Assembly (NCBI GenBank): GCA_040902535.1
Contig: JBBDXD010000025.1
Location: 1-64,000 of the forward strand
Direction: 5' to 3'
Source of the DNA: Dehalococcoidia bacterium
GTDB lineage: Bacteria > Chloroflexota > Dehalococcoidia > DSTF01 > JACRBR01
DNA length: 64,000 bases
Shown: piece by piece, positions 3,128 to 21,702 of the stretch
Layout of the letters: each line of letters starts with the position of its first letter
Numbering within the stretch: the stretch's first letter is position 1
Translations under genes and position numbers: made by a program
Notes under the pieces: generated by a model
What the model was told of the DNA's origin: nothing
What the model saw: the letters and a program-made list of their open reading frames with translations, nothing else
The model's database searches: none

Positions 3128-3172
3128 TGGAGCGGGAGATGGGACTCGAACCCACGACCCTCTGCTTGGGAA
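3128..3172. other. attL, distal attachment repeat
   Basis: The 45 bases are identical to 21627-21671 and correspond to the 3' half of tRNA-Gly(CCC) including CCA. The match stops abruptly after TTGGGAA, where this copy continues CAAGTT and the tRNA continues GCAGAT. It is not a functional tRNA because the 5' half is missing. Confidence 0.9.
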
Positions 3173-4069: not shown

Positions 4070-4626
4070 TTCGCGTTCCCTTCTCGGTCGCGCCGCATAC
4101 GTTCTAGCCGTCGCTGGACGAACGGAGCCAGGTGCGCTTCGTACGTCTCATACACCTGCGGTAGACTCCAGTCCCTTCCGGTTATCTGTCCCCGACATGA
4201 GGCGGCGCCGCAATTGCAAGACGTCTTCATCACGTAGGTCTGATCCAGAAGCTCAATCGCATAGTCGATGGTTAGCTCCTCGCCGGCGTCAATGTCGCGG
4301 CGGGCGACCAGCGTGATCTCATCGTTCAGCCAGAGGTTCGGATCGCAGCTATGGTTCATGCAATCGTCCAAGCCCAAGCCATCCTCAGGCGGTGACGCCA
4401 GATAAACATCCTCAGCGAGACCCACGTTCGAGTGAGCCAGGCCCTTGCCGGCCTTGAAATCAGCCATTGTGACGACGACGCCGCCCCAGATGATTACCGT
4501 TGCGTTACGCTTGATCGGGCGCGCCGTGAACAAGCCTTCCCCCTCGACTTTGGATGGCCCGACCCACAATCCGTCGATCATCCAAGACTTACGAGGGATC
4601 CATGAGAAGTCATACGACACGGACAC
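4066..4626 (-). CDS. SET-domain protein (putative protein-lysine methyltransferase)
   Basis: The 186-residue protein contains a SET fold. The N-terminal VGPSKVEGEGLFTA segment is followed by the AdoMet/pseudoknot motif MNHSCDPN near residue 89, then AGEELTIDYA near 113, and a post-SET cysteine cluster C-x-C-x4-C (CNCGAASC) near 137-144 that would bind zinc. These are the residues expected of an active enzyme. SET proteins are mainly eukaryotic and are patchy in bacteria, which fits horizontal transfer. It lies 15 bp behind the membrane GNAT-like gene and overlaps the SDR gene by 4 bp, so it belongs to a compact operon. The target protein is unknown. Confidence 0.85.
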   Translation of the reverse strand: MSVSYDFSWIPRKSWMIDGLWVGPSKVEGEGLFTARPIKRNATVIIWGGVVVTMADFKAGKGLAHSNVGLAEDVYLASPPEDGLGLDDCMNHSCDPNLWLNDEITLVARRDIDAGEELTIDYAIELLDQTYVMKTSCNCGAASCRGQITGRDWSLPQVYETYEAHLAPFVQRRLERMRRDREGNAK

Positions 4627-5705: not shown

Positions 5706-6740
5706 CTAGGGATCCCAAACCTTGCGATCCGCGGCAGTAAAGTCCCGCAAAGAGTTGAAGACGACGACACGTGTTTGCGGCCCGATTCCCCGCTGCAGCA
5801 CATCACGTGTTCTCCGTCGTGCTTCTGGATCGGGGTTCACGATAGTGAGGGCTCGAAGATTCCCGCCTTTGGTGTTCGTACGGAAGAGTGCCGTCGAGTG
5901 CAGATCCGTAGCTGGGAAAGAATAGCCGATCACGACGATGCTCCGAGATGAATAGAGTTCTCGACCAGCGAGCTTCCAAAGACGTGCGAATACGCCTTCG
6001 TCGAACCGCTTTTGTGATTCGGGAGGGATTATCGTAAACCGAAGATTTCCCCGCTGGCGGGTATAGGGACGTTCCTTCAAACGCACATTGGCGGGCGTCG
6101 CCTCATCATCGACGATGAAGTGCAGTGACCCGTGCAATTTCAGCAGGGTGACTGTGTCCACTCGCGTCGCGATCCGATCTGGCGACCAATGGTGATCTCC
6201 TCGAAGGTTTCCACCTCCACCCGGCGAGAGTTCAAACCCATAGCCGTAGTGGGCATTCCACTTTCCGTCGCCGTGCCGCTTGAGGGCGTCGTCAATCAGG
6301 CAGTCATAGTTGAAGGACACTACGGAGTCGCCGACGCGGAGCTTCGCCACGAGCGCGTCATGATAGTCACAAGCGAGAGGCTTCTGATTCCCGCGACATA
6401 TTGACTCCTCGAAAACCGAAGCTATCGCTTGCTGTAACCGCACCCGCTTTTCCTTGAAGTCCGCGGTCTTGAAGTCCCGCTTCTCGCCGGTCGTCTTGAG
6501 CATCCGCTCGGAGTGTTCAAGAGTGGTGAACATCGTCTCCATTGTGGTGCGAAAGTTCGTGCCAAACAGCTCGACCGTGTCCTTGATCACGCCATCAATA
6601 ATCCTCTTGTGTTTCGGATCGTGGATGCGCTGAAGCTGCGTGTGGAAGTCAGCGTCTAGGGGCGGCAGGCACGGATTCACAGTCGGATCGACGAAGCTCG
6701 CACCCCGCGTTGCCCCCGCGCCCAACACAATGACAGCCAT
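5706..6740 (-). CDS. SIR2-like protein, candidate NAD-consuming defence effector
   Basis: The 344-residue protein has SIR2 superfamily marks: the nucleotide motif VIVLGAGATRGAS at the N-terminus, SFNYDCLIDDAL near residue 150 (conserved Asn/Asp), LLKLHGSLHF near 205 (candidate catalytic His), and VVIGYSFPATDLH near 272. No zinc-binding cysteines are seen, as in the SIR2-like proteins of anti-phage systems that deplete NAD+ rather than deacetylate. Its start abuts the stop of rusA with no gap. It is followed on the same strand by the GNAT-like, SET and SDR genes. An NADase function is inferred from family and context. A regulatory or non-enzymatic SIR2 fold is the alternative. Confidence 0.78.
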   Translation of the reverse strand: MAVIVLGAGATRGASFVDPTVNPCLPPLDADFHTQLQRIHDPKHKRIIDGVIKDTVELFGTNFRTTMETMFTTLEHSERMLKTTGEKRDFKTADFKEKRVRLQQAIASVFEESICRGNQKPLACDYHDALVAKLRVGDSVVSFNYDCLIDDALKRHGDGKWNAHYGYGFELSPGGGGNLRGDHHWSPDRIATRVDTVTLLKLHGSLHFIVDDEATPANVRLKERPYTRQRGNLRFTIIPPESQKRFDEGVFARLWKLAGRELYSSRSIVVIGYSFPATDLHSTALFRTNTKGGNLRALTIVNPDPEARRRTRDVLQRGIGPQTRVVVFNSLRDFTAADRKVWDP

Positions 6741-7169
6741 CTAGTTTCGGCCCTCTCGTTCAACCCAATCCAGTTCGACCTCGTAACGCACAACATCAGT
6801 TACGGGCAGCCTCTCGATGACGATCCGCGAGACTACGCAGTCGTCGCGGAAGGCAATCGCGCGATCAGGCCGCGCCTGCTCTGGCACCTCCGCCCACAGC
6901 GAAGGGTCCACGGGAGCTCGCGGATGTACTGCCATCAGCCCGTCGCAGATGCCCGTCGCAAAGTTGTCCAGGTCGCCTGCGCTGACAGGCGCAAAAACGC
7001 GGACGGTCAACGCCACCAGACCGTCTTCTGGTTCTCGGCCATCGAGCGCCGCGCATGCGGCGATACGGAACGTCTTGAGGCGCTGCACTTCCGCCTGCTT
7101 GCGCCACATCGAGTTGGCGCCGTCCTTCTTCGGCGGCACGCCGTCAACGGTGAATGTGACCTTCATCAT
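6741..7169 (-). CDS. rusA: RusA-like Holliday junction resolvase
   Basis: The 142-residue size is typical of RusA. The N-terminus has VTFTVDGVPPKKDGANSMWRK. The core carries acidic residues that fit the RusA metal site, in the motif SAGDLDNFATGICDGL and later RPDRAIAFRDD. RusA enzymes cut four-way DNA junctions during phage or prophage recombination and replication. The start codons ATG 7169 and ATG 7166 follow a TACACT box by 5 and 8 nt, which suggests a leaderless message starting at the second ATG. The stop abuts the SIR2 start. A frameshifted paralogue lies at 2420-2841. Confidence 0.85.
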   Translation of the reverse strand: MMKVTFTVDGVPPKKDGANSMWRKQAEVQRLKTFRIAACAALDGREPEDGLVALTVRVFAPVSAGDLDNFATGICDGLMAVHPRAPVDPSLWAEVPEQARPDRAIAFRDDCVVSRIVIERLPVTDVVRYEVELDWVEREGRN

Positions 7170-7777: not shown

Positions 7778-9682
7778 TTAGGCTCCGACCGGGCTTTCCG
7801 CGACGCCGTTCGCCGCATGCCGGAACGGAGCGAGGCGGACCAGCCGATTGCGTCGGTCATCGGGATCGGCCTTCCGCTCGATCTTGCCGCCGTCCTCTAG
7901 CTGTCGCAGCGCGGCGTCCAACGACGCGTTGTCGATGTCGTCATCGGCCAGCTTCTCGCGCAAGGTGCCCTTCGGCATCCAGTCGGTAACGAAGCCGAGG
8001 ACATCCAGGACGAGGCCTTTCGCCAGATCGACCTTGCGACCGGAGCGTCCGGCTGGCTCTTGATCGAGCGCCGACGGCGCCACCAGGAGGAGCTGGGCGG
8101 TGCCTCGCTCCTCGCTGATGATTCGTCGGACCCCGAACGGCTGCACCTTCGCCGAACATCGGGCTTTCGCGTGCTCAACGGTGGACGTGTCCTCGCCGCC
8201 AATGCTGACCGCGAGCATCGTGTCGAGCGTCGCCTCGATATGGCTGGACCCGCGGAAGGTGCCACCATCCTTGCGATTGTGGTGCAGCACGACGAACGCC
8301 GGATCGCACGACCGTCCGGCTGCACGGAGCCGGTTGAAGATCTTCGCCACCTCATCGGCCGAGTTCTCGCTCTCGCGATGCACCTCGGCGAACGCGTCGA
8401 TGACCACGAGCGCTGGCCTGATCCGCGCGATGACCTCCTTGAGGTCGTCGACGCAGCGGCCATTCGAAAGGTTGAGGCCCTCCTTCGACGCGACTTCGAT
8501 GGGAAGCGCCGCGCCTTCTAGCCCTGCGCCTCGAATGAGCAATTCCAGTCGCGCCTTGAGGATCGCTGCTGGCGACTCCTCGTCGATCAGAAGCACGGGG
8601 CCGGCGATGACCTGGTACTTTCGGAGCCATGGCCGTCCGGAGGCGATCGCTATCGCGAGGTCGAGCGCCAACCAGGTTTTGCCCGACGCCGGCTTACCCA
8701 CCAGGGCAACCATCCCTCCGCGCGGGATCAACGGCTCAACGAGCCAATCGATCCTGTCCGGGGCTTCGGCGAGGAAGGCTTGAAGCGGGACTGCGGCGAA
8801 CCCACGATCCCCATCGATCGGTTCGATTCCCGGGTCGGGGTACCGCCGGTAGATGCCGGAGACGACGCTTTTCAGTTCCGCCTTGTCGAACGCGGGATCG
8901 CATCGGTCCGCCCATTCGTCGAGGATCGCCTGGGTGACATCCTCAGGGTGGGCACGGCTCTTGAGGTATCCCGCCAGTCTGGCGGCAGCGTCGTTTCGCC
9001 CGCCTGCATGGACGCCGGCCAGCAGCTCTACCACCCAGTTCTCGGTCAGCGGAACACTGGTCGGGCGCTCGACTTGCACCTGCGAGGCGATCGCCCGCAA
9101 CGGCCCGGCCTCGGACGGCTGGCAGAGGGTCAGAAACCGCGTCAGCGGCATCGGCTGCATTGAGCCGCTCGTGAGGACCATGCGCGGGCCGTCGGTCTCG
9201 CCAAAGTAGGGGAGGTTGATGTAGTTCCCGAATTCCACGGTGCCGGCATCGTCCTGCTTCGGGAAGATCTCCGTCGTCTCAGGGAGCCCGGCCGCCAGGA
9301 CCGCGTGACGTAGGATCCGTCGCATCTCGCGTGCGGTGATCGCCTCGTCGGCGAAGAGCCACACGTGGTAGCCCTTCCCTCGGGACTGTTCCATGTAGAC
9401 GCCAGACGGCAGTTTCAGTGCCGCTAGGGCGTCGTACACGGCCTTTGCGAGCGTCGGATCCTTCCGGTCGATGTCCACCGCGCCGAACCTGCAAGTGCTG
9501 TCCGGCATTAGCGGATAGACGCCAAGGCTCTCCTCGCCTTGGAGGTGGCGCCGGTAGTGGTCGAGCGTCACCTCCCCTCGCGCACATCCTCCCTGCGCGA
9601 GTCCACGCGCATCCTTGCGCCCCTCGAAGATCGAAGCGAATCGCCTCACCTTCTCCTCGTCCAACCGCGTAGTCGTGTCCAT
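7778..9682 (-). CDS. TOTE-like AEP primase fused to RecA-type helicase (element replication protein)
   Basis: 634 residues in two main modules. Residues 1-200 resemble the archaeo-eukaryotic primase of TOTE systems and some phages: GAVDIDRKDP (metal-binding DxD) near 67, SRGKGYHVWLFAD (primase His) near 103, and VEFGNYINLPYFG near 150. Residues 205-300 look like a linker or primase C-terminal region. Residues 310-520 are a RepA/AAA_25-type ATPase with Walker A VGKPASGKT near 330, Walker B VLLIDEES, LVVIDAF and the sensor-like VLHHNRKDGG. The C-terminus resembles a winged helix (DNASLDAALRQLEDGGKIER). It should prime and unwind element DNA. A 39-bp inverted half-site pair lies 167 bp upstream of its start. 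Confidence 0.85.
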   Translation of the reverse strand: MDTTTRLDEEKVRRFASIFEGRKDARGLAQGGCARGEVTLDHYRRHLQGEESLGVYPLMPDSTCRFGAVDIDRKDPTLAKAVYDALAALKLPSGVYMEQSRGKGYHVWLFADEAITAREMRRILRHAVLAAGLPETTEIFPKQDDAGTVEFGNYINLPYFGETDGPRMVLTSGSMQPMPLTRFLTLCQPSEAGPLRAIASQVQVERPTSVPLTENWVVELLAGVHAGGRNDAAARLAGYLKSRAHPEDVTQAILDEWADRCDPAFDKAELKSVVSGIYRRYPDPGIEPIDGDRGFAAVPLQAFLAEAPDRIDWLVEPLIPRGGMVALVGKPASGKTWLALDLAIAIASGRPWLRKYQVIAGPVLLIDEESPAAILKARLELLIRGAGLEGAALPIEVASKEGLNLSNGRCVDDLKEVIARIRPALVVIDAFAEVHRESENSADEVAKIFNRLRAAGRSCDPAFVVLHHNRKDGGTFRGSSHIEATLDTMLAVSIGGEDTSTVEHAKARCSAKVQPFGVRRIISEERGTAQLLLVAPSALDQEPAGRSGRKVDLAKGLVLDVLGFVTDWMPKGTLREKLADDDIDNASLDAALRQLEDGGKIERKADPDDRRNRLVRLAPFRHAANGVAESPVGA

Positions 9683-9848
9683 TTCGGACCTTTCTACTAC
9701 GCTCGTCTAGAGCAACCCTTTGTGGGCAGTCGTCCCGAGCGTGTTCGGGTCGTGAGAAGTCGCCATGTTGGGGGTGAACCGGAATCGAGAACCGGTTGGC
9801 TTTACTCACGCTCAGGACGATGGGGTTGGGAGTACGAACCGCAATGCA

Positions 9849-9887
9849 GATCACGATCAACGAAGGCCTACGCGTGATCTTGATCGA
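9849..9887. repeat. inverted half-site pair, copy 1
   Basis: GATCACGATCA, 15 unrelated bases, then TGATCTTGATCGA. The two half-sites are inverted repeats of one another except at the central base. The same half-sites with the same 15-nt spacing recur at 13523-13561. Copy 1 lies in the 418-bp non-coding stretch 9683-10100 upstream of the primase gene. It could be a replication-initiator or repressor binding site. The rest of that stretch shows no credible gene. Confidence 0.7.
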
Positions 9888-10100
9888 GATCAGCTGCTCG
9901 CGGGCACGATGATGCATCCCTGCATCGAAGTGCCAACGAGGGTTCCATAGCGTCGGTGGGTGGGACATGTACACCTCCTGGGACGCGGAGGGCCCCGATC
10001 CAAGCGGATCGGTTGCAGCCGAACTCGTGCGCCCAGCAGGGTCGTGCGGGGCGTATCTGCCCCTACCTATAGGGTGGAGTGGACAAGGCGACTTGTGACA

Positions 10101-11444
10101 TTAGGCGGCCAGAAAATCTCGGAGGAGGGGTTTGAGTCGCTGCTTCGTCTTGCGTGCCGTGCTCGGCGGCAACCCTGCTTGCTGGAAAAGCTGCTCTTCG
10201 GGGACTCCCAGTTCCTGGGCTCGAATGCAGAGCCGAGCGATTTTGGCCTGGGCGGGCGTCATCGAGGCAAGGATGCGATCGACAATCAGGCTCGATTCGA
10301 CGAGCCCGTACTCCGGATCGATCTGGCAAGGTTCGTGGCCAAGGTCCGCGAACTGAAACGAGCGCCTAGCGCCACTGCGCGTGTTGGATCCCTCTTCCTT
10401 CGGCTTGTAGTCACGATCAAGGCTGAGTTCTCGGCGTAGCTCGCGATTGGAGAGGTCCTTGAGGCGATTTCGCACAGTTCGCGGGTGGCCGTCCCACCCT
10501 TGCCAATGCGTGCAGGGAACGCCATCCGCGAGTACCAACTCAAGAGGAAGTTCCGATGACGATTTGACCTCGTAGGCTCGCTCCAACATCAGAACCGCCA
10601 AGATGCTCGTGAGCATGTCATCAGCGTCGAAGCCTGGTCGTCTCGGTGTTCCCTTCGGGCGCCGGTCGTCCCTTCGCGCTTGCGCGGGTACCGGCGGCTG
10701 ATATTCAGGACAGAGTCTCCGGACGGAGTTTGATAGCGAATGCCCTTGAGGGAACTGCGTCGCTGCGCGATCACGCGCGAACGCCGCTTCAATCCGCGCG
10801 ATGCGCTTGAGTGGCGTACGCTCTTGGAGTGCTGAGCTGATATCGGCGAAGAGTTCACGGACTTCATCCCTCGCGCGTTCCCTGGACTCCGCTCGTCGTT
10901 TGGCGATCGAGTCGAGCAATTTCTTGTCGGCCGCCAACTCGGGAACGACTCCGCCGCACATCAGTCTGTCCACCCGCGCACGCCAACCAGGAGGATGCTT
11001 CGGTCGAAGCAGCTGGCGACACCTCGCGCCGGTGACGTTTCCCTCGACGCCCATGGCGTCTACGAGCACGAGGCGAACGTCATATGCCAACACGCGTCCA
11101 TTATCGATGCATGTGAAATGGCCGAGCGCGCCTATGTGATCGAGCGTGCGTCTCCATCCGGTGTGGCAAGTCGCTTGCGGTTGTTCGTGAGGTCCAACCG
11201 GGACTGAACTGAACGATGGCCTGACAATATCGTCCTCGAGACGCATCTTCGCAAGCTGACCCGGAAAGATGAGAAGCTGCCAAGTACGAGCTTCAAGGCC
11301 CTTGTTGTCGAGTTGCGCAAACACTGATCGACGCAACTTGTCCACGGCGCACGCAACCTGGTCTCTCTCCACTCGTCCGCTAACGTGAGGCACTCCGTTC
11401 TGAAGGAACAAGTGCAACACAACGGACAGATCGATCATGTTCAT
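10101..11444 (-). CDS. hypothetical protein with C-terminal HTH-like region
   Basis: About 447 residues if started at MNMIDLSVVLHLFLQ (11444). An in-frame ATG at 11474 would add 10 residues. No known family is apparent. The last 60 residues (SMTPAQAKIARLCIRAQELG, then LPPSTARKTKQRLKPLL) look like a sigma-region-4 or HTH helix-turn-helix, so DNA binding is plausible. Around residue 260-300 is a disordered basic stretch. It follows the non-coding stretch with the inverted half-sites and is transcribed in the same direction as the primase. It may be an element regulator, but this is a guess. Confidence 0.65.
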   Translation of the reverse strand: MNMIDLSVVLHLFLQNGVPHVSGRVERDQVACAVDKLRRSVFAQLDNKGLEARTWQLLIFPGQLAKMRLEDDIVRPSFSSVPVGPHEQPQATCHTGWRRTLDHIGALGHFTCIDNGRVLAYDVRLVLVDAMGVEGNVTGARCRQLLRPKHPPGWRARVDRLMCGGVVPELAADKKLLDSIAKRRAESRERARDEVRELFADISSALQERTPLKRIARIEAAFARDRAATQFPQGHSLSNSVRRLCPEYQPPVPAQARRDDRRPKGTPRRPGFDADDMLTSILAVLMLERAYEVKSSSELPLELVLADGVPCTHWQGWDGHPRTVRNRLKDLSNRELRRELSLDRDYKPKEEGSNTRSGARRSFQFADLGHEPCQIDPEYGLVESSLIVDRILASMTPAQAKIARLCIRAQELGVPEEQLFQQAGLPPSTARKTKQRLKPLLRDFLAA

Positions 11445-11551
11445 GCATAAGAATCGGCAGCCGCGCTGGCGCAATCAGGATCTGTGTCGGTTTGAAACAA
11501 GCTCGTATGTGTTGCGTTCTATCGTCGATGGAATCGACGAAAGGAACGCGT

Positions 11552-12430
11552 ATGGAAATTCGAACAAGACTCACCCGGCTGCGACTGCCTGGACTTGGTA
11601 GCGGGTCGGCACTAGACCGTCTCATCGACAAGCTCGACTGGTCCGCGGGGACCCGGCATCGCTTGCTGACCGGCGAGCTGCTGCCGGAGGCGAGACCGTT
11701 CTGCACTAGCGGCTACAACCCGCTCGGTGAAGCGCGCGAGCGATATCTCGCCGGCGACCGCGATGAAGCGATCTGGTTGCATTTCGTGGCAACGCTCATC
11801 GGATGGGAGCGCCCGGACTCGGTCGATCGCTTTCTCCGCGTCCTCGGCGGCGGACAACGAGCGACGTGGTGCGTCATCACAGCGCACCCTCTCGACGCTA
11901 TCGCGAGAATTGAAGACCACGCCGCGGTACTGATACGAGAGGCACCGTTCGGGAATCACCGGAAGTATGAGACTCACCGCGGTGATGGGGGCAGTGCTCG
12001 TGTCGTGAAGAGCTTCATCGATTGGGCTGAGGCCAACCCGTCCGCGCGCATCGACGCCATCGCCACAACGGCGACTAATCCAGAGCATGCCTTCGATCGC
12101 CTTTTCAACTCCCTGAAGGTGTACCGCTTCGGTCGAACTGCCCGCTACGATTTCGCTCGGCTGCTGGCAAACCTCGACGCGAGGTTGAAGCCCGGCTGCT
12201 GTTACTTGCAAGGCGCGTCCGGCCCGAGACGTGGCGCCGCGCTGCTGTTCCTTGGTCGGCCGTGGGCGCGGGACGGCGAACTTTCATTCCTTGAAGATCG
12301 CTGCCGCGAACTCGCACAAGTCTGCGGTCTGGATCTCCAGGTGATAGAAGACGCCGTTTGTCAGTGGCAGAAAACGACTCCGTCAGCCCGTGTGGAACAA
12401 GCACCACGCAACCTTGCGAGGGCGTCATGA
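11552..12430 (+). CDS. alpha-glutamyl/putrescinyl thymine pyrophosphorylase-like protein (putative DNA-base hypermodification)
   Basis: I chose ATG 11552 because AAAGGA lies 7 nt before it. The product is 292 residues. The C-terminal segment KVYRFGRTARYDFARLLANL followed by LKPGCCYLQGASGPRRGA resembles the conserved core of the thymine pyrophosphorylase-like group from phages with hypermodified thymine (clade 3). The N-terminal part has ERPDSVDRFLRVLGGGQRAT. Such enzymes act on modified thymines to install amino-acid or polyamine adducts that block restriction. Only the family resemblance is visible, and the companion enzymes of a hypermodification pathway are not evident in the island. It overlaps the next small frame by ATGA. 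Confidence 0.5.
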   Translation: MEIRTRLTRLRLPGLGSGSALDRLIDKLDWSAGTRHRLLTGELLPEARPFCTSGYNPLGEARERYLAGDRDEAIWLHFVATLIGWERPDSVDRFLRVLGGGQRATWCVITAHPLDAIARIEDHAAVLIREAPFGNHRKYETHRGDGGSARVVKSFIDWAEANPSARIDAIATTATNPEHAFDRLFNSLKVYRFGRTARYDFARLLANLDARLKPGCCYLQGASGPRRGAALLFLGRPWARDGELSFLEDRCRELAQVCGLDLQVIEDAVCQWQKTTPSARVEQAPRNLARAS

Positions 12431-12621
12431 CCACCACGTGGAACAGTCGCCTCAGCGCCGATGCCAGATCGGCGCGCCGAAACTGCACCTTGCCCGAGCG
12501 CGTGCAAGCCGAATACGGATGTCGGTTTGTCGGCGCGCTGAGACGACGCAGAGCCGTCGTGAACGCGCAACGCGTCGTAACGTACGCCTCATTCGCTCAG
12601 CGCGTCTCTCGCGCACCTTAG
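12427..12621 (+). CDS. small hypothetical protein, uncertain
   Basis: The 64-residue frame starts at an ATG that overlaps the preceding stop (ATGA at 12427-12430). The product is arginine-rich (MTTTWNSRLSADARSARRNC), with AQRVVTYASFAQRVSRAP at the end. The coupling suggests translation, but composition alone cannot separate it from chance in GC-rich DNA. No family is recognised. Confidence 0.3.
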   Translation: MTTTWNSRLSADARSARRNCTLPERVQAEYGCRFVGALRRRRAVVNAQRVVTYASFAQRVSRAP

Positions 12622-12707
12622 CGCACATGAGAGCGCTTGAGGAACTGTTATCGCGAACGAACGACAGGGCGGCCATGGGGCCGCTCTTCGGTTAGAAGGA
12701 GAAACTC

Positions 12708-13517
12708 ATGACCACGGAGAAGACGCAGCGTCTGTTGGCCTCGCTCGAGCAGGCTGTGCTTGGTGTGCAGGATAGCGACGGCTTCAAGGCCTATCTTCGG
12801 ATGACCGCGAAGTTCCACTCCTACAGCTTTGGCAATGTCCTGCTTATCGCTTCCCAACAACCAGGCGCAACGCGCGTCGCCGGCTATCGCACCTGGCACG
12901 CTTTTGGTCGCTACGTGCGAAGGGGAGAGAAGGGCATCGCGATCGTCGTGCCCTACCGAACCATGCGGAACAACGACGCCGGCGAGACCGAGGAGCGCGT
13001 GCGGTTCGGCACCGGCTACGTGTTTGATATCTCGCAGACCGAAGGCCAGGATCTCCCGAACGTCCGCTGCCCGCTGCTGAGCGGCGACAGCGCGCGGGAT
13101 CTCTATGAAGCGCTGGCCTGTCTTGCGGCATCTAAGGGCTTCGTTCTCGATCGCGCACCCCGGCCCGACGAACCGGCCGCCGGCTTCTGGCAGCCAGCAA
13201 CGCGGACCATCTGGATATCACCAGAACTCTCGACGGATCAGGCCGCGAAGACGCTCGCGCATGAACTGGCACACGCGTTCGATCCGGAGATCGGAGACTA
13301 TGGTGCCTGTCGTGACGAGCGCGAGGCGGTTGCCGAAGCCGCGGCGTTCGTCGTGTGCGAGCGCTTCGGGCTCGACACCAGCGAGCGGAGCGTGCCGTAC
13401 ATCGCGGGATGGTCGAAGGACATCGAAACGCTCAAGCGCGCGCTCGCGAAGGTCCAGACGATCGCGCACCAGATCTTGGAGACATTGGACGCCACCCAGG
13501 CGCAAGCCGCGGCATAG
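12708..13517 (+). CDS. ardC: ArdC-like antirestriction protein
   Basis: 269 residues with the two ArdC parts. The N-terminal ssDNA-binding domain spans about 1-130, with FGNVLLIASQQPGATRVAGY and RRGEKGIAIVVPY. The C-terminal zinc-metallopeptidase-like domain has HELAHAFD near residue 184 (HExxH) and a following DEREAVAEAAAF helix. ArdC proteins of conjugative plasmids protect incoming ssDNA against host restriction. A ribosome-binding AGAAGGAGAA stretch precedes the ATG. It could help this element enter a new host, while the element itself carries a restriction set. Confidence 0.85.
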   Translation: MTTEKTQRLLASLEQAVLGVQDSDGFKAYLRMTAKFHSYSFGNVLLIASQQPGATRVAGYRTWHAFGRYVRRGEKGIAIVVPYRTMRNNDAGETEERVRFGTGYVFDISQTEGQDLPNVRCPLLSGDSARDLYEALACLAASKGFVLDRAPRPDEPAAGFWQPATRTIWISPELSTDQAAKTLAHELAHAFDPEIGDYGACRDEREAVAEAAAFVVCERFGLDTSERSVPYIAGWSKDIETLKRALAKVQTIAHQILETLDATQAQAAA

Positions 13518-13522
13518 TCGTC

Positions 13523-13561
13523 GATCACGATCAGACGTACGCACTCCCTGATCTTGATCGA
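13523..13561. repeat. inverted half-site pair, copy 2
   Basis: Identical half-sites and spacing to 9849-9887 (GATCACGATCA, N15, TGATCTTGATCGA). Here the palindrome extends two bases further outwards (TC and GA). It starts 6 bp after the ardC stop. The 257-bp stretch 13518-13774 holds nothing else that I can identify. Confidence 0.7.
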
Positions 13562-13774
13562 CGTTAGCGGGATGGGAGTCAGCGACGCGAAATGCCTGAG
13601 AGAGGTTAGTGGTGTCGCGTCACCCTAATATACTATTCGCGGACGTAGCGTAAGTCGGCCACGTTTCTCTCGAGTTTACGGACTTCGGCGCATCGCGATG
13701 GATGGAGCGTGGATGCCAGCAAAGACCTCGAATAGAGAGAAACAGCCTGTCGAAGCGCGGCCCCGCGCGAGTCG

Positions 13775-14023
13775 CTACGTTACCTCCTCGAAGGGAAAGT
13801 GCCCAGAGACAATGCGCTCGCTCACGAAGCGCCCCGCGGATGGAGCCTTGATTAGCTGGTCATACACATCGCGCGGCACCAGATAGTAGCGATACGTGCC
13901 TCGCTCGCGGAACTCGACCTCAAGCGTCGAATTCTGTGGGTCGTACCCCACTGAGCGGATGCTGTCCGATTGAACCAATACTCGCTGCACAAGCGAACCC
14001 TCGGTCATACGCGAGTGTATCAC
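13775..14023 (-). CDS. KTSC-domain protein
   Basis: Up to 82 residues. A start at MTEGSLVQR (14008) is equally possible. The core VQSDSIRSVGYDPQNSTLEV and GTYRYYLVPRDVYDQLIKAP followed by GRFVSERI is the small KTSC domain, named for its occurrence at the C-terminus of some lysyl-tRNA synthetases and common as a free protein in phages and plasmids. Its function is unknown. It is followed upstream on the same strand by the zinc-finger-like gene 9 bp away. Confidence 0.75.
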   Translation of the reverse strand: MIHSRMTEGSLVQRVLVQSDSIRSVGYDPQNSTLEVEFRERGTYRYYLVPRDVYDQLIKAPSAGRFVSERIVSGHFPFEEVT

Positions 14024-14464: not shown

Positions 14465-15721
14465 ATGACGCGCGGTCGCTCTACCGTAGTAGACATCTTC
14501 GCCTGCTGCGGCGGCATTACCTGCGGGTTCCAATGGGCGGGCTTTCGTCCGCTCGGCGGCGCCGACATTCAGGAGTTGTACCTCCGCACCTACGCCCGCA
14601 ACTTTCCCGACGCGAAACCAATACACGCGGACCTCGCCGAGCTGCCGCCAGCGCAATTCCGCGAAATGCTCGGCCTAGAGCGCGGCGAACTTGACTGCCT
14701 CGTCGGTGGTCCACCTTGTCAGGGTTTCTCAAAAAACGTGCCGGCCATCAACCGCTTTCTCGATGACCCACGCAACCAGCTGATCGGGCGCTACCTCGAC
14801 TACGTTGAAGAGCTGCGTCCGAAGATCCTGCTGCTCGAGAACGTCGCCGAGATCGTCCGTGCCTACGACGGCGCGGTTACGCGCGAGATCATTACCGCGC
14901 TCAATTCTTGGGGCTACGAGGTCGATGTCAAGGTGCTCGTCGCTGCCGACTTCGGGGTGCCGCAAATCCGCCGACGCGCATTCTTTTTCGCAAACCGACT
15001 CGGGGCGCCGGTCCTATTTCCAACTCACACACATGCACAGGAAGAGGCCCCATCCGACCTCTTCGGTAACGGCCGCCTCTCGCACGTGACGGTCTGGAAC
15101 GCTATCGGCGACTTGCCGTCGCTCGAGGCTGGCGAGGGCAAGAGTCCTGTGACGTACACGATGCCGCCGCAGTCCGACTACCAGCGGTTAGTGCGCGAGG
15201 GTTCCGACCTACTTCACGACCACGTTTCGCGCCCACTTCGCGATCGGCAGCTCGAGCGCGTTCGTGCGCTTCGTGAAGGTGAGGGAGTACAACAGCTGCC
15301 GCCTATGCTTCGTCCCAAGTCTGGCTACAGCGGAGCCTACGCGCGACTGCACTCGCAGGGTGTGGCGCGCACCATCACGCGTTGGGTCTTCCACTCAGGG
15401 TCCGGACGTTTCTCGCATCCGTTCGATGATCGGGTTATCACCATCCGAGAGGCAGCACGTTTGCAAGGGTTCCCCGACTGGTTCGTGTTCACTGGCACGT
15501 ACGTGCAAAAGGCTGCCCAGGTCGGTGAGGGCGTACCGCCGCTGATCGCAAAGGCTTTTGCGGAGATCGCGCAGCAGCTACTTCTTGAACGCGGCCGGGC
15601 GCACGACCTTGGCCGGAACTTCGTCCTCGACGGCGCGAGCAACGGGCGCGTCCTTGGGGCTGAGAAGTCCCATGACCGCCTCGACGAACTCGTCCGCGTC
15701 GATGCGGGCGGGGCTGATTGA
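14465..15721 (+). CDS. DNA (cytosine-5) methyltransferase
   Basis: 418 residues with ordered 5mC methyltransferase motifs: I VDIFACCGGITCGF, IV GGPPCQGFS with the catalytic Cys near 82, VI ILLLENV, VIII QIRRRAFFF, IX near REAARLQGFP, X GEGVPPLIAKAF. The target recognition region is short and lies about 210-320. It should methylate the site cut by the adjacent endonuclease and so protect the host. The 3' end overlaps the convergent endonuclease gene by 144 bp. The residues after LLLERGR look like an unneeded extension, perhaps from loss of an original stop. A vsr gene nearby fits 5mC chemistry. Confidence 0.92.
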   Translation: MTRGRSTVVDIFACCGGITCGFQWAGFRPLGGADIQELYLRTYARNFPDAKPIHADLAELPPAQFREMLGLERGELDCLVGGPPCQGFSKNVPAINRFLDDPRNQLIGRYLDYVEELRPKILLLENVAEIVRAYDGAVTREIITALNSWGYEVDVKVLVAADFGVPQIRRRAFFFANRLGAPVLFPTHTHAQEEAPSDLFGNGRLSHVTVWNAIGDLPSLEAGEGKSPVTYTMPPQSDYQRLVREGSDLLHDHVSRPLRDRQLERVRALREGEGVQQLPPMLRPKSGYSGAYARLHSQGVARTITRWVFHSGSGRFSHPFDDRVITIREAARLQGFPDWFVFTGTYVQKAAQVGEGVPPLIAKAFAEIAQQLLLERGRAHDLGRNFVLDGASNGRVLGAEKSHDRLDELVRVDAGGAD

Positions 15722-16372
15722 CACGCGCGTCGCTTGGTCGGGGATGTGGAAAACCTCGAACAACTGTTTTTGGTTCGGGTACCAGCGAAGCTTGAGCCTA
15801 CCATCGGAAAACCCCTGCAGGCCCGTAGCCGTCGCGTTCGTCCATTTCCATGCAAATGCCTCTTCATTGAAGGGCGGGTAGCTGCTCTCAACAAGCACGA
15901 AATTCTTGCGCGCGTTGTCCTTCAGCAGGATGCCGACGCGCGCGTCAGTGACTCCCTGGTACTTGCCGTCCCCAACGACCTTCTCGTTCCAGTGACGGAT
16001 TAGCGCACGACCAAGATCTTCCGGTGGTGACGTCGCATCCAGCTTGGCAAACCCTAGGGCGACGGCCTTCTTGAAGATGTCGGCACGCTGGATGACTAGC
16101 TCGAACTGCGTGCCAGCCGCGAGGTTGCCCCACTGCACCGCCTTAAGCGACCAACCAATGTGTTTCGCTTGATCTACGGCGTCGAACAGTCGCTTTGTTC
16201 GACCCTCAACAAGCGGGTTCGGAACAGGGAGCCCTTTCACGTAGTGGAAGGCCGCCTCCCAGATGAAGTCCTCAAGGTCGTCGATGAACGGCGACGCGAA
16301 GCACACGGCGATGGCCGTTGCGAGCCTTCTCTCCTGATGGGCCGAAAGGCCGTAGTAAACTGTCGATGCCAC
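15578..16372 (-). CDS. putative type II restriction endonuclease
   Basis: 264 residues, convergent with the methyltransferase and divergent from vsr, which is the usual place for the cognate nuclease. The stretch PLVEGRTKRLFDAVDQ...GWSLKAVQW (about 53-82) fits a PD-(D/E)xK-type site with an Asp and an S-x-K. GKYQGVTDARVGILLKD follows near 138. I cannot name the specificity. Assignment rests on context plus the weak nuclease pattern. The 144-bp tail overlap with the methyltransferase means that one of the two C-termini is not essential. Confidence 0.6.
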   Translation of the reverse strand: MASTVYYGLSAHQERRLATAIAVCFASPFIDDLEDFIWEAAFHYVKGLPVPNPLVEGRTKRLFDAVDQAKHIGWSLKAVQWGNLAAGTQFELVIQRADIFKKAVALGFAKLDATSPPEDLGRALIRHWNEKVVGDGKYQGVTDARVGILLKDNARKNFVLVESSYPPFNEEAFAWKWTNATATGLQGFSDGRLKLRWYPNQKQLFEVFHIPDQATRVSISPARIDADEFVEAVMGLLSPKDAPVARAVEDEVPAKVVRPAAFKK

Positions 16373-16939: not shown

Positions 16940-18448
16940 ATGGAACCCTACCTGACCCTCTTTGGTCACGTCATCACGTTATCGACCCGGCCAACGCCGA
17001 GTTTCCTGGAATATCACATTCGGCCGATGGCCGCTCAAGACACCCCTTCGCCCGGCATGATGCTCGCGGTCGAGCTTGGAGTTGACGGAGACCTTATGGC
17101 GTACGCCATGGTTCGGGTGTCGAACGCCTGGGAAGCCAATCCGTATGAGGACGCCCACAGTGCGACGCTCGAGGAGGTCATGCCATTCAATCTGGTCTCG
17201 CCTTCTGAGGGTGAGTCGCCTGTGATCTACCGCGTTTGCCATGTCGAGCCCCTCGAAATGGCCCTTGTTCGGCCGGACACGGGCGAACTCGTTGATGTGC
17301 GATCGGTGACGCGACTTCCGCGCGCCGGCGCACCCGTCTATCTGCCATGGGGTGATTTAATCGCGCGGACACTCGGGCTCATCGATGACCGAACGCGAGC
17401 CCTGGATCTCGGGACCATCCGCGGTTCCGAGGAGGTAGCTGCCTTGATTCGCCGCGACGCAATCCAGCGGCACATGTCGATCCTAGGCGCAATCGGTTCA
17501 GGCAAGTCGTATACCCGCGGGGTGATCGCTGAGGAACTGACGAGATTGCGCGTACCGCAGGTGAACATCGACGTCAACGGAGAGATGATCAGCGCCGCCA
17601 AGGAGCTCGGGGGGAGGACGGTCGTTCCCGGCAAGGACTTTCATGTGCCCCTGAGCGCTTTCACTGCAGGTGACATCCTCAACGCAGTGCCAAGCCTCGG
17701 CGGAAATATGGTGGAGCTTGTCCGACACGCCCACGAGGAACTCCTAGGCGATGCGCGGGCGACCCGAGGAACTTTTGGAGTAGAGGAGCTGATCAATAGG
17801 ATGAATGAGGAGGCACCTAGGCTCGATATGAAGCCCGTGACACTCAGACCAGCGGTTGCCCGGGTTGGTTCTCTCCGCCGCATGCCCATCCTTGGCGCCC
17901 CGTTCGATTGGAAGAGCGAACTGACTCCTGGCGCGTTCATAAACATTGACTGTCGCGGGCGATCGCTCACGGAGCTACGCCTGATCGCGGCGTCTGTGGC
18001 CCGTGACATCCAGCGCCTAGGCCAGTCGGGAGCCGTACCCTTCATCGCGTTGTCTGTAGATGAAGCACACTTAGTTGCGCCATCGGACGATGAAACTGTC
18101 GCAAAGCAGGTATTTCGAGAACTCGCCCGTATCGGTCGCCATATTCGCGTCGGATTGATCATTACAACACAGGCTCCACGCGACATTGACTCGTCCATCC
18201 TCGAACGAACACTCACGCGGTTCATCCACACATTGGAGCCACATCAGCTTCCCGGCATTCGTTCGCTGTTTGCGGATGCATCGGAGGACCTGATCAAGCA
18301 AATGCCCAAGATGCCGGTCGGTGTATGTGTTGTAACCGGGGCCATCGAAAATATTCGTCACGCTGCTGTGGTGAAGGTTCGCTCCCGTCGCACAACGCAC
18401 GGCGGCGAGACGCCGGACATATGGAAGGATCTGGACGAACAGCCATGA
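16940..18448 (+). CDS. herA: HerA-like DNA translocase ATPase
   Basis: 502 residues. The N-terminal HAS-barrel region spans about 1-150. The FtsK/HerA ATPase core follows, with Walker A GAIGSGKS near 188, NIDVNGEM (HerA-specific strand after Walker A) near 210, Walker B ALSVDEAH near 372, and RIGRHIRVGLIITTQAPRDI near 395. HerA forms hexamers that translocate DNA and usually partners with a nuclease encoded next to it. Here the stop overlaps the start of the NurA-like gene by ATGA, so the two products are probably a complex. HerA-nuclease pairs are known phage-defence modules. Confidence 0.9.
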   Translation: MEPYLTLFGHVITLSTRPTPSFLEYHIRPMAAQDTPSPGMMLAVELGVDGDLMAYAMVRVSNAWEANPYEDAHSATLEEVMPFNLVSPSEGESPVIYRVCHVEPLEMALVRPDTGELVDVRSVTRLPRAGAPVYLPWGDLIARTLGLIDDRTRALDLGTIRGSEEVAALIRRDAIQRHMSILGAIGSGKSYTRGVIAEELTRLRVPQVNIDVNGEMISAAKELGGRTVVPGKDFHVPLSAFTAGDILNAVPSLGGNMVELVRHAHEELLGDARATRGTFGVEELINRMNEEAPRLDMKPVTLRPAVARVGSLRRMPILGAPFDWKSELTPGAFINIDCRGRSLTELRLIAASVARDIQRLGQSGAVPFIALSVDEAHLVAPSDDETVAKQVFRELARIGRHIRVGLIITTQAPRDIDSSILERTLTRFIHTLEPHQLPGIRSLFADASEDLIKQMPKMPVGVCVVTGAIENIRHAAVVKVRSRRTTHGGETPDIWKDLDEQP

Positions 18449-20547
18449 CTGACGACCGGCAAGCACCTGCAATCTCGACTTCGTCGCAACGGGAACGCGA
18501 GATCATGCGCCTTCTCCGCGAGAGGGATGAAAGCATGACGGTTGCGGAGATCTTCGATGAGGTGTCTTCTCGCCTGAGCGACTCACGCACCCTTCAGACG
18601 TACTACAAGACCGTTAACAGGCTCGAGGCAGCAGGACGCGTTAGTGCGGCTGACGGCGATGGAGCGCGCGTGTACAGTCTTGTCCCCGGAATCTCGCTCG
18701 CACATGCCTTTACCCAGGACGACATCAGCGATGCCGTGCTCTACCGGAGGCCCGCTGCAATCCTTGCGGCGATTGAGCATCACAACGAGTACCTAGAGGC
18801 GCATCGAGCAACCACTCTAAGGGTGGCTGGTGAGCGTCTCATGGAAGAAACCGACCCCGCCAGCCTCGTGGCCCTGATGCTCCATGAAGATGTCTCAGTG
18901 TTTCGTGCCAAGCTCGACGAGTACCAGGACGCGCGGGACGAAACCTTGCGCGCTAGGCTCGAAGATGATCACCGACACCTTCAGCGTACTTACCTGCGAG
19001 AACTCGCTCTAACGCACAAGGCTCTCGTACTACCCATGCTAGAAGCATTGGATATTGGCGGCGTCGTGTATTCCCGAGAAGAAGCTGAGAAACAGATTCG
19101 TCGGCGCATCTATGGCGATCGCTGTGTCGGCGCGGCCGGCGCACGTCCCACCACGAGCTTGGACAGCACCGTCGCCGGTAGTGACGCGAGCGTGAGGTTC
19201 AGTGAACTACGATTCATCAAAGCGGCATCCTACCGCGAGGACGACGGCGGCCTAGTGTCGATAAATACGAGCGTCGCTGTAGAGAAGCTGGCGCCCGAGG
19301 CGGCAAAGTCCCGGGGCAGGGCGATGATGACCCACAGCCTTCCTTTGACGCGCGAAGCGATCGATGATCCCAAGAACCGCGGAATGATCATGCTGCGTGT
19401 GGCTTTCCCGGATCTCACGGATTCCGCGTTCGAGCATGCGAAACACGGCGCGACCGATGTGGTCCAGTGGCGCGTTGACGTTGCGGTCTTCTCAGGAACG
19501 GCTGCTGATGTGGGAACTGGCGAGATACTCCCGCGCCCAAAGGTCCATCTTCGCGACGGAACCGTGGTGCCCCAGGAACGCGAACACAGGCACTATGTCG
19601 ATAACGATGCGTATGGGGAGTTCACGCGAGAGGGCGTCCGCCATACCCGGCGGATCCTTCAAGAGTTACGTGACTCTCGCTCCCTCCGTGTATTCGGGGG
19701 AACGGTGAAATCCACGCAGTCATACTTCTTCGGATCGTTTCTAAACTGGTTCATCCGATCCGGTTCGCGCCGCGGGAGCGAGCCACCCATAGACCCGAAC
19801 TGGCAGCTTGCCCGCAGCGCTCAACTGCCCGACCACGTGTACATGACCCACCTGTTCGGAGCGCTGCCCCAACTCGAGTTCAACAACTTCTATAGGACCT
19901 TCGTGGTCGTGCGCTCCTTCGCATCGACGACCGAGTACTACATGTCAGGAACTCATGTGGAGGAAGCCGGCGGTTGGCCGCAGTTCATTCGGCGGGTCAG
20001 GGAGGGGCGGCGGGAGTTCAAAGCTAAGACGGGTGAACCGCCCGACTGGGACGAGGGTGTCGATCTCGAGGATGACGACTTTGTCTACGTGTGCGAACAC
20101 GGGGAGTACGCTTCGTTCTACATCGGAACCACCGCTGGTCATCCGGCGCCGCTTGTCCCACGTTATGAGTTCATTCTTCCATCGGTTGACAGCGATACTG
20201 AACAGCAGAGACAGGCCTCAGTCCTCGACAGCCAGCAAGCGATCATTCACGCGGTCCAACAGGTCGGCTTCATGACCGACCGCGACCACAACATGCTCAC
20301 GAACCGAACCTTGGTGCGGATTCTCCCGTCCGTGATTCAGCAGGCACACGATGCCTGCAAATCCTTCGGTGGCCAGCTTGAACGCTCGCTCTACGGTGCC
20401 GTTGCTGAGCTTCTCTCAAGAGGAAGGCGGCTGCGTTTAGGGAGTGGCGATATACAACTCCGTCCCGCCGATCCCGAGGCCGTCATCCAATCCCTCTTGG
20501 CAGGCGCGACTACTGATCCCGACGACGCCGATTCGCCAGATGTCTGA
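18445..20547 (+). CDS. wHTH-NurA-like nuclease, HerA partner
   Basis: 700 residues from ATG 18445. A longer in-frame start at 18325 lies inside herA and is unlikely. Residues 10-75 form a winged helix (SQREREIMRLLRERDESMTV, then LQTYYKTVNRLEAAGRVSA). Residues 80-330 are helical with no known family. Residues 330-640 resemble a NurA fold: VDVAVFSG, LRDGTVVPQEREH (candidate metal-binding Asp), VFGGTVKSTQSYF as the counterpart of the NurA VVK segment, and FYRTFVVVRSF. NurA is usually 300-400 residues, so the N-terminal half is an unusual addition. The nuclease call is by resemblance and by coupling to herA. Confidence 0.6.
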   Translation: MTDDRQAPAISTSSQREREIMRLLRERDESMTVAEIFDEVSSRLSDSRTLQTYYKTVNRLEAAGRVSAADGDGARVYSLVPGISLAHAFTQDDISDAVLYRRPAAILAAIEHHNEYLEAHRATTLRVAGERLMEETDPASLVALMLHEDVSVFRAKLDEYQDARDETLRARLEDDHRHLQRTYLRELALTHKALVLPMLEALDIGGVVYSREEAEKQIRRRIYGDRCVGAAGARPTTSLDSTVAGSDASVRFSELRFIKAASYREDDGGLVSINTSVAVEKLAPEAAKSRGRAMMTHSLPLTREAIDDPKNRGMIMLRVAFPDLTDSAFEHAKHGATDVVQWRVDVAVFSGTAADVGTGEILPRPKVHLRDGTVVPQEREHRHYVDNDAYGEFTREGVRHTRRILQELRDSRSLRVFGGTVKSTQSYFFGSFLNWFIRSGSRRGSEPPIDPNWQLARSAQLPDHVYMTHLFGALPQLEFNNFYRTFVVVRSFASTTEYYMSGTHVEEAGGWPQFIRRVREGRREFKAKTGEPPDWDEGVDLEDDDFVYVCEHGEYASFYIGTTAGHPAPLVPRYEFILPSVDSDTEQQRQASVLDSQQAIIHAVQQVGFMTDRDHNMLTNRTLVRILPSVIQQAHDACKSFGGQLERSLYGAVAELLSRGRRLRLGSGDIQLRPADPEAVIQSLLAGATTDPDDADSPDV

Positions 20548-20614: not shown

Positions 20615-21577
20615 CTAACGTCCCACCAGCCGATCCGCCGGCGACAGCTTCTTGTGCGCTCGCCGAGCGCGGGCGCTGGCCGTGGCCTTCGTGTACCGCT
20701 GGACCATCTGGAGCGAGTTCCAGCCGGCGATCTGCTGGAGGTCCTCGGCGTAGCCGCCGGCGTCCAGGAAGGCGATCGCGAACGAGCGCCGGAAGCCGTG
20801 GATGCCCTTGAAGGGTACGCCGGCGTCCTGGAACCTCCGCCTGAGGCACATTCGGAGCGCATTGAAGGTCATCGGCTGCCCTCGTGTTGAGATCCAAACG
20901 TGGTCTGCCAGCGTCGCCGGGCGCTTCCGTAGGTACTTGTCGAGCATCAGCGCGGCCTTGTTGCCCATCGGGACGACACGTTCCTTCCCGCCCTTCCCTG
21001 TGACCTTGATCGCCTGTTCATCCATGTCGAGATCATCCATGCGCATGCCGCACAACTCCGACGCGCGGACGCCCGTGTCGTACAGCACGAGCACCATCGC
21101 GCGGTCCCGCAGCGAGGTCCAAGACTTTTCGCCACAGGCCTTCAGCACGCGTTCGAGTCCCTCGGTGCCGTAGTGCTCCTTGATTTGATCCGGCACCTTC
21201 GGCGGCTTGATGCGGACCATAGGACTCTCGCGGATCTCGCCCTCTTCGAGCAGCCAGCGGTAGAAGCGCTTGAGCGACCGGTAGCGCTGGTTGACCGTCG
21301 AAGGTGCGTTGCGACCTTGCATGTCTCCGAGGAACTCGCGGACGTGCTCCGTGCTCATCGACGGGATCGACGGCATGCCGCGGTCGAGCCGAAAGGCCTC
21401 CAGTCGGTGGATCGCGTCGGCGTAGATGTTGAAGGTCTTTTCCGTCAGACCCTCGGCGCGGAGGGTCAGCCGGAAGCTCGACAACAGCGCCTGGATGCTG
21501 GGGCCGGCGTCCGCCGGATCCGAATAATTGGGCGCACTGGGATGCAAGCTGCGGGTGGGATTGGTCATGGGGCACAC
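20615..21577 (-). CDS. int: tyrosine recombinase (element integrase)
   Basis: 320 residues. A SAM-like core-binding domain spans about 28-120 (LLSSFRLTLRAEGLTEKTFN and STVNQRYRSLKRFYRWLLEE). The catalytic domain spans about 130-310, with Arg in DTGVRASELCGM, Lys in TGKGGKER, HGFRRSFA (HxxR), a Trp in AGWNSLQM at the second His/Trp position, and nucleophile Tyr in VQRYTKA. All catalytic residues are present. The gene starts 50 bp from the CCA end of tRNA-Gly(CCC) and reads away from it, the normal layout for an integrase that uses this tRNA as attB. It should join and excise the 18.5-kb element. Confidence 0.95.
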   Translation of the reverse strand: MCPMTNPTRSLHPSAPNYSDPADAGPSIQALLSSFRLTLRAEGLTEKTFNIYADAIHRLEAFRLDRGMPSIPSMSTEHVREFLGDMQGRNAPSTVNQRYRSLKRFYRWLLEEGEIRESPMVRIKPPKVPDQIKEHYGTEGLERVLKACGEKSWTSLRDRAMVLVLYDTGVRASELCGMRMDDLDMDEQAIKVTGKGGKERVVPMGNKAALMLDKYLRKRPATLADHVWISTRGQPMTFNALRMCLRRRFQDAGVPFKGIHGFRRSFAIAFLDAGGYAEDLQQIAGWNSLQMVQRYTKATASARARRAHKKLSPADRLVGR

Positions 21578-21626: not shown

Positions 21627-21671
21627 TGGAGCGGGAGATGGGACTCGAACCCACGACCCTCTGCTTGGGAA
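21627..21671. other. attR, tRNA-proximal attachment repeat
   Basis: The 45 bases are identical to 3128-3172 and run from the CCA end through the T-arm, variable loop and 3' anticodon stem into the anticodon loop of tRNA-Gly(CCC). The tRNA remains whole after insertion. Confidence 0.9.
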
Positions 21672-21702
21672 GCAGATGCTCTACCAACTGAGCTACTCCC
21701 GC
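21627..21702 (-). tRNA. tRNA-Gly(CCC)
   Basis: A 76-nt cloverleaf on the minus strand. The acceptor is GCGGGAG/CTCCCGC, the D-arm is AGCTCAGTTGGTAGAGC, and the anticodon stem TCTGC/GCAGA closes the loop TTCCCAA (anticodon CCC). The T-loop is TTCGAGT and the 3' CCA is genome-encoded. It is the integration target of the neighbouring island. Confidence 0.97.

Follow-up and report, generated by a model that had tools for sequence, protein, structure and literature searches.

Two identical sites of opposed TGATC repeats in an integrative element of a Dehalococcoidia bacterium, and their possible role in docking a RepA-like primase-helicase

The window analysed here, 64,000 nucleotides in all, comprises positions 1 to 64,000 of the forward strand of contig JBBDXD010000025.1 from a Dehalococcoidia bacterium (assembly GCA_040902535.1). 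It contains an 18.5-kb mobile element, bounded by a 45-bp attachment (att) direct repeat at a tRNA-Gly gene, that encodes among other products an integrase, a fused primase-helicase, an orphan protein, a thymine hypermodification-type enzyme and an ArdC-type antirestriction protein (Table 1). Within this element the spaced pattern GATCACGATCA-N15-TGATCTTGATCGA occurs at two places 3.67 kb apart. Site 1 falls within the 418 nt that separate the orphan stop from the start of the primase-helicase (9682, minus strand), 167-205 nt upstream of that start, and site 2 begins 6 nt past the ardC stop (13517). A first-pass annotation of the window had reported the pair, and its letters, coordinates, strand and N15 spacing are exact, as is its placement of the copies relative to the primase-helicase gene and ardC. 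Its further claim that the pair brackets a replication and regulatory core holds for the orphan, the thymine-modification-type gene and ardC, which do lie between the sites, but not for the primase-helicase, which lies outside them.

Table 1. Coordinates of the two sites and of selected features of the element (positions in the window).
Feature	Position	Strand	Remarks
Site 1	9849-9887	+	GATCACGATCA-N15-TGATCTTGATCGA; four TGATC pentamers (2 direct, 2 inverted)
Site 2	13523-13561	+	GATCACGATCA-N15-TGATCTTGATCGA; strand and spacing as site 1
CCTATAGGG	10066-10074	+	Sole copy in the element, in the intergenic region of site 1; relatives have a core of this kind close to their repeats; suggestive only
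AT-rich patch ACCCTAATATACTATT	13622-13637	+	61 nt beyond site 2; suggestive only
Primase-helicase, 634 amino acids (aa)	7778-9682	-	Proposed ligand of both sites
Orphan, 457 aa	10101-11474	-	Helix-turn-helix-like C terminus by eye; alternative ligand
aGPT-Pplase3 / ADDT family protein, 312 aa	11492-12430	+	E 1.5e-42; thymine hypermodification-type enzyme
ArdC-type antirestriction protein	12708-13517	+	
Integrase, XerC/D-type tyrosine recombinase	20615-21577	-	
att repeat, left end	3128-3172	+	45 bp, copy of the 3' part of tRNA-Gly
att repeat, right end	21627-21671	+	45 bp, within tRNA-Gly 21627-21702

We confirm that both sites are a real feature. The spaced pattern gives 2 matches in the window where 0 are expected (100 dinucleotide shuffles), and in the source genome as a whole (28 contigs, 3,184,540 bases) it is confined to these two places. 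Within each half-site the pentamer occurs twice in direct orientation at a period of 6 (TGATC n TGATC). Perfect four-pentamer sites are found nowhere else in the element, and none arose in any of 60 dinucleotide shuffles of it (4 gaps, 37 spacings). The half-sites had been described as identical, which is true between the copies but not within a site: GATCACGATCA opposes GATCAAGATCA, and this C/A difference is kept at both places. A fifth TGATC pentamer occurs at site 1 (position 9888), and the palindrome of site 2 continues outward for 4 further pairs. The spacers, ACGAAGGCCTACGCG and GACGTACGCACTCCC, agree at 2 of 15 positions and the 60-nt flanks at 15/60 and 14/60, which is chance level and bears out the earlier statement that they are unrelated; the letters common to both sites number 24, at equal spacing. 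Because spacers and flanks agree only at chance, the two copies do not descend from a longer stretch duplicated recently; it is the arms alone that have been kept. Half-sites that are equal and equally spaced are naturally read, as the annotation proposed, as the target of one oligomeric sequence-specific protein.

Three ligands had been put forward: the initiator, the orphan product and the integrase system. The initiator is the best supported of the three. The integrase is not supported as ligand, as no such half-site occurs near either att end and the sites lie more than 6 kb and more than 8 kb from the ends. The candidate initiator, the primase-helicase, combines an AEP-TOTE primase domain (residues 39-161), PriCT_1 (220-282), an AAA_25 helicase domain resembling RSF1010 RepA (303-473) and a C-terminal winged helix, MarR-like at 583-612 (MarR E 3e-4, tail alone). 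The resemblance to RepA is evident in sequence (PDB 1g8y, E 1.7e-11) and in the modelled fold (Z 24.8-25.0, root-mean-square deviation 2.2-2.9 over 216-223 residues), for which we used a model built on 17 aligned sequences with a mean predicted local distance difference test score (pLDDT) of 83; a single-sequence model of the whole protein, with a pLDDT of 38, was not used. The structure list for the pLDDT 83 model is filled by matches to the helicase part and so names no winged-helix protein; a profile of 12 relatives' tails matches many solved winged-helix chains. Searched with as a single protein, the primase-helicase has no direct relative in IMG/VR and only partial matches among phages and plasmids, and at 1e-20 it is found in 7 of 393 genomes of the class (its own included), none of the others full length.

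On balance we favour, by a modest measure, the reading of both sites as initiator-docking sites of the element's replication module, with the C-terminal winged helix of the primase-helicase as their probable reader. We infer that the primase-helicase binds the TGATC repeats, that the sites serve as an origin and that the two cooperate. In the mechanism we propose, the integrase would excise the 18.5-kb element as a circle, and the primase-helicase would then bind the TGATC repeats, most likely via its winged helix, with two facing sets of subunits seated on the two direct and two inverted repeats. From these a RepA-like ring could be loaded, and the primase domain would make primers. The two sites would act like the ori and crr of the satellite phage P4, one of them as the opening site and the other as a second site that is looped in, or as a copy-number or autoregulatory site.

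The element's relatives bear on this reading by their layout rather than by their letters. The annotation had made its reading depend on finding the same pattern in related elements. Taken literally this expectation fails: the spaced GATCACGATCA/TGATCTTGATCGA pattern in relaxed form is missing from the 196 other genomes (197 searched including its own), but the layout recurs with different letters. In IMG/VR the exact pattern has 0 matches and the relaxed one is found in 18 contigs, where no relative of the sites was recognised. The relaxed pattern also occurs in at least 113 stretches of the genome collection, where the genome matches are coding, an artefact of codons with spacings in 3-nt steps, and again none was recognisable as a relative. 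The first hint of a shared layout was the presence of opposed repeats at the gene end in three genome loci of helicase relatives. A scan blind to TGATC, for any word of at least 6 letters occurring twice direct and then twice inverted, was run on 17 viral loci collected by helicase-tail alignment and matched 7 of them, in every case within the interval from 46 nt ahead of the helicase stop to 119 nt past it and nowhere else, with words of the CGCTAACA type (four related loci), TGGTGCGC, TGTTCCCG and TGTCAAAC.

A simpler window rule, in which 7-mers are counted on both strands in 250-nt windows and the 3' end of the gene is compared with every other window, put the 3' end ahead of all others at 13 of 21 loci, a count that leaves out L152-L157 (L155-L157 are not helicase loci). 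The same held for 9 of 24 loci newly drawn from 393 genomes of the class (30 loci minus 6 repeats of earlier ones), including arrays of AATCTGA (12 times) and GGCGAAC (8 times), and for three of three further loci. One of these last three belongs to the source genome itself, where a second RepA-like helicase has GTTGCCA five times, in both directions, at its 3' end (L207, G000:C5, 751-1050; stop 969). When 45 loci are pooled, clusters of at least 6 lie near the 3' end at 11 and elsewhere at 1, 'near' being 14% of windows, and 900 trials with shuffled ends produced no cluster of 5 or more; with the threshold set at 5, the 24-locus set alone is unimpressive (5/24 near vs 4/24 elsewhere). Clusters beyond the helicase domain (L178, L186) were scored as misses. 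Because several loci are related (L158, L159, L163 and L167 are one family, and L160, L162, L164 and L166 look like another), the number of independent loci is smaller than these counts. With that qualification, opposed private repeats are shown to be associated with genes of the RSF1010-RepA-like helicase family, and this is a more useful result than the site pair itself. The recurrence of the layout with different letters fits initiator/iteron pairs, which behave in this way. A search of the open-licence literature found no paper on iterons of RepA-like/AAA_25 helicases, which is a weak negative.

Several features of the relatives' repeats deserve separate mention. A CCCTATA/TATAGGG core occurs near the helicase end 7 times in 19.6 kb against 9 in 248 kb (7/45 loci, broken-frame locus L186 excluded from the core count), but it was picked after the sequences had been seen and is a hint only. 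At L160, L162, L164, L158 and L167 the repeats form part of the coding sequence and are translated into tails rich in Pro/Ser/Thr or Asn/Ile (for example PSSPSTPSS, NIANIAN), so that the protein tail is there shaped by the repeat array. At L152 (10740-10900) GGTAACA repeats and a CCCTATATACGCGCGCGTAGG core lie downstream of an AEP-TOTE primase without a helicase; the GGTAACA cluster, at the 3' end of the primase, ranks first in its locus, which suggests that the 3' repeat rule extends to stand-alone AEP primases. L153 and L154 have no 3' cluster.

P4 is among the closest known systems. Its replication needs both ori and crr, and the helicase of its alpha protein belongs to superfamily 3 (SF3), whereas that of the element is RepA-like. 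The P4 record annotates type 1 repeats at crr (4291-4590, beside alpha) and at ori (9310-9413), and our window scan, applied to P4, returned crr and ori as its top two windows. Like the element, P4 has a fused primase-helicase with a C-terminal winged helix and opposed short repeats at two places kilobases apart (4.7 kb in P4), and its crr unit, like each of the element's sites, sets two direct repeats before two inverted ones, with one more type 1 repeat in addition. Unlike the element it uses 8-mers, more of them per site, with AT-rich spacers and with crr directly 3' of alpha. According to the passages of PMC4234260 that treat it, alpha binds its repeats via the winged helix, and its primase is of the Toprim type, in contrast to the AEP primase of the element.

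The initiators of the Staphylococcus aureus pathogenicity islands (SaPI), of the phage-inducible chromosomal islands (PICI) and of the staphylococcal cassette chromosome (SCC, SCCmec) correspond to the proposed reading in having an initiator helicase with a C-terminal DNA-binding domain and private iterons beside its gene (parts of PMC6092414 and PMC7581432). The sections concerned in PMC7581432 describe SaPI Rep and SCC Cch2 as binding iterons beside their own genes by the C-terminal domain, the Cch2 iteron being 5 nt, and those in PMC6092414 give each PICI origin two sets of iterons, one on either side of an AT-rich region, so that two opposed sets are common to PICI and to the element. SaPI/PICI and Cch2 differ from the element in helicase family and in their single origin 3' of the gene, and the AT-rich centre of SaPI/PICI is absent from the element's sites. 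RSF1010 RepA resembles the element's helicase in fold and sequence, but RSF1010 distributes over separate proteins what the element joins in one (primase, helicase and winged helix): in the relevant text of PMC4234260 a separate RepC reads the iterons and RepB' primes at ssiA/ssiB. The pRN1 protein ORF904 shares with the element an AEP primase, a helicase and a C-terminal winged helix, with the origin beside the gene; it differs in its SF3 helicase and, as far as the account in PMC4234260 goes, in having one large 3' stem-loop without iterons. Compared with a pRN1-type stem-loop beside the rep gene, site 2 has a strong fold (z -5.25) but is far from the gene, and site 1, near the gene, folds weakly (z -1.71).

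A number of observations weigh against the docking of an initiator at these sites. Neither end of the primase-helicase gene has a 7-mer cluster (count 2 at the 3' end, 3 at the 5' end); site 1 instead lies on its 5' side and site 2 follows ardC, and our certainty is lowered because the element thus breaks the 3' rule of its relatives. The spacers are short and GC-rich rather than AT-rich, and there are only 4-5 pentamers per site. The rule itself failed at 8 of 21 and 15 of 24 loci, and no locus was found with the same full AEP-PriCT-RepA-winged helix architecture. The C-terminal domain of P4 alpha does not match the profile of the 12 tails (probability 0.1), a difference between the two systems in the binding domain. 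Nor is a winged helix clearly linked to a 3' cluster across 44 loci (L186 again excluded): where one was detected, 14 loci have a cluster and 11 do not, as against 8 and 11 where none was detected, and outside the model's own rows the comparison is 7 and 7 vs 8 and 11. Because the winged helix predicts a cluster so unclearly, that the helicase tail reads the repeats is something we infer even for the relatives.

The next most likely explanation, though an unlikely one in our estimation, is that the sites are operators of an element regulator, either the orphan or an autorepressing primase-helicase, which would control the primase-helicase promoter and end or insulate the ardC operon without opening an origin. 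Site 1 does occupy the gap before the primase-helicase gene, equal half-sites suit a dimeric repressor, and the orphan gene, whose product is a possible ligand, ends 214 nt from site 1. The only sigma-70-like match of 9600-13900 (minus strand, 9936-9909) falls just before site 1, but such a match is at chance level (0.7 expected). Site 2, moreover, lies between convergent genes, where an operator is unneeded, and it is iteron sites such as P4 crr that typically carry direct repeats in facing pairs. The orphan, whose frame of 10101-11444 extends to 11474 if a TTG start is allowed, gave no family match, has no detectable DNA-binding family in particular, and has no relative in 392 other genomes, IMG/VR, phages or plasmids.

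That the sites act as folded single strands we regard as improbable. They could be primase start hairpins like ssiA/ssiB of RSF1010; alternatively, they could be two hairpin recombination sites in like orientation that delimit a captured cassette of 3.7 kb with the orphan, aGPT-Pplase3 and ArdC as its cargo. Conserved arms around varying loops, and a single orientation of both copies with cargo genes between them, would agree with this, as would the fold of site 2 (-14.3 kcal/mol, none of 200 shuffles as good; opposite strand z -4.99). The fold of site 1 is weak, however (z -1.71 and -1.83), and a hairpin does not need a direct repeat inside each arm; among the products scanned there is no cassette recombinase besides the terminal integrase, and no empty or moved cassette was seen in relatives. 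Accidental repetition of GATC-rich codon runs (ITI...LILI) is very improbable indeed: among the genome-collection matches listed, spacings of 12, 15 and 18 account for 102 of 123 places and each of the 34 N15 places falls in an open frame of at least 130 aa, but both window sites are outside likely genes, share their 24 letters around unrelated spacers and had no counterpart in the shuffled elements.

Returning to initiator docking, a broader proposition can be framed, which we hold tentatively and think somewhat more apt to be wrong than right. RepA-like (superfamily 4, SF4) helicases with C-terminal DNA-binding tails would define a broad class of replication modules in mobile elements, separate from the PICI/SaPI and P4 lines. 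The origins of these modules would be opposed private iteron sets located at the helicase gene or next to it, and the present element would be a split-origin version in which two identical sites 3.7 kb apart need joining. If the reading is right, helicases of another family also work with a P4-like layout, and the origins of many unstudied elements could be located by looking where a RepA-like helicase gene ends for opposed private repeats. The element would then stand beside P4 as the second replicon in which to ask why two distant initiator sites are maintained.

Among the remaining features, the AT-rich patch beyond site 2 ranks in about the top 0.1% of the element's 16-nt windows. The other element genes examined encode a RusA-like resolvase, a C5 methyltransferase, a match to a type II restriction enzyme, a HerA ATPase and a SIR2 protein; no relaxase or phage structural protein was found among the element products scanned (small frames scanned in part). 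The aGPT-Pplase3/ADDT gene sits here in an integrative element, adjoining ArdC. Its relatives are present in 3 of 392 other genomes of the class, in 8 plasmids and in none of the phage collection, and their loci have no site like those of the window at one mismatch. At 14465-16372 a C5 cytosine methyltransferase gene is followed by an overlapping opposite-strand open reading frame with a match to a type II restriction enzyme model (E 2.8e-56); together they form a restriction-modification pair that neighbours the antirestriction gene. Further on, at 16940-20547, a HerA-like ATPase is followed by a 740-aa protein of no family except for a weak repressor-type N terminus, and these two, with the SIR2 protein encoded elsewhere in the element (5706-6740), are possible defence cargo. 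Finally, a degenerate copy of the att repeat (76%) lies at 2887-2931, and RusA-like DNA in the 2478-2931 region is 75-81% identical to the element's own copy (6802-7142); we take 2478-2931 to be what is left of an earlier, related insertion at this tRNA-Gly.

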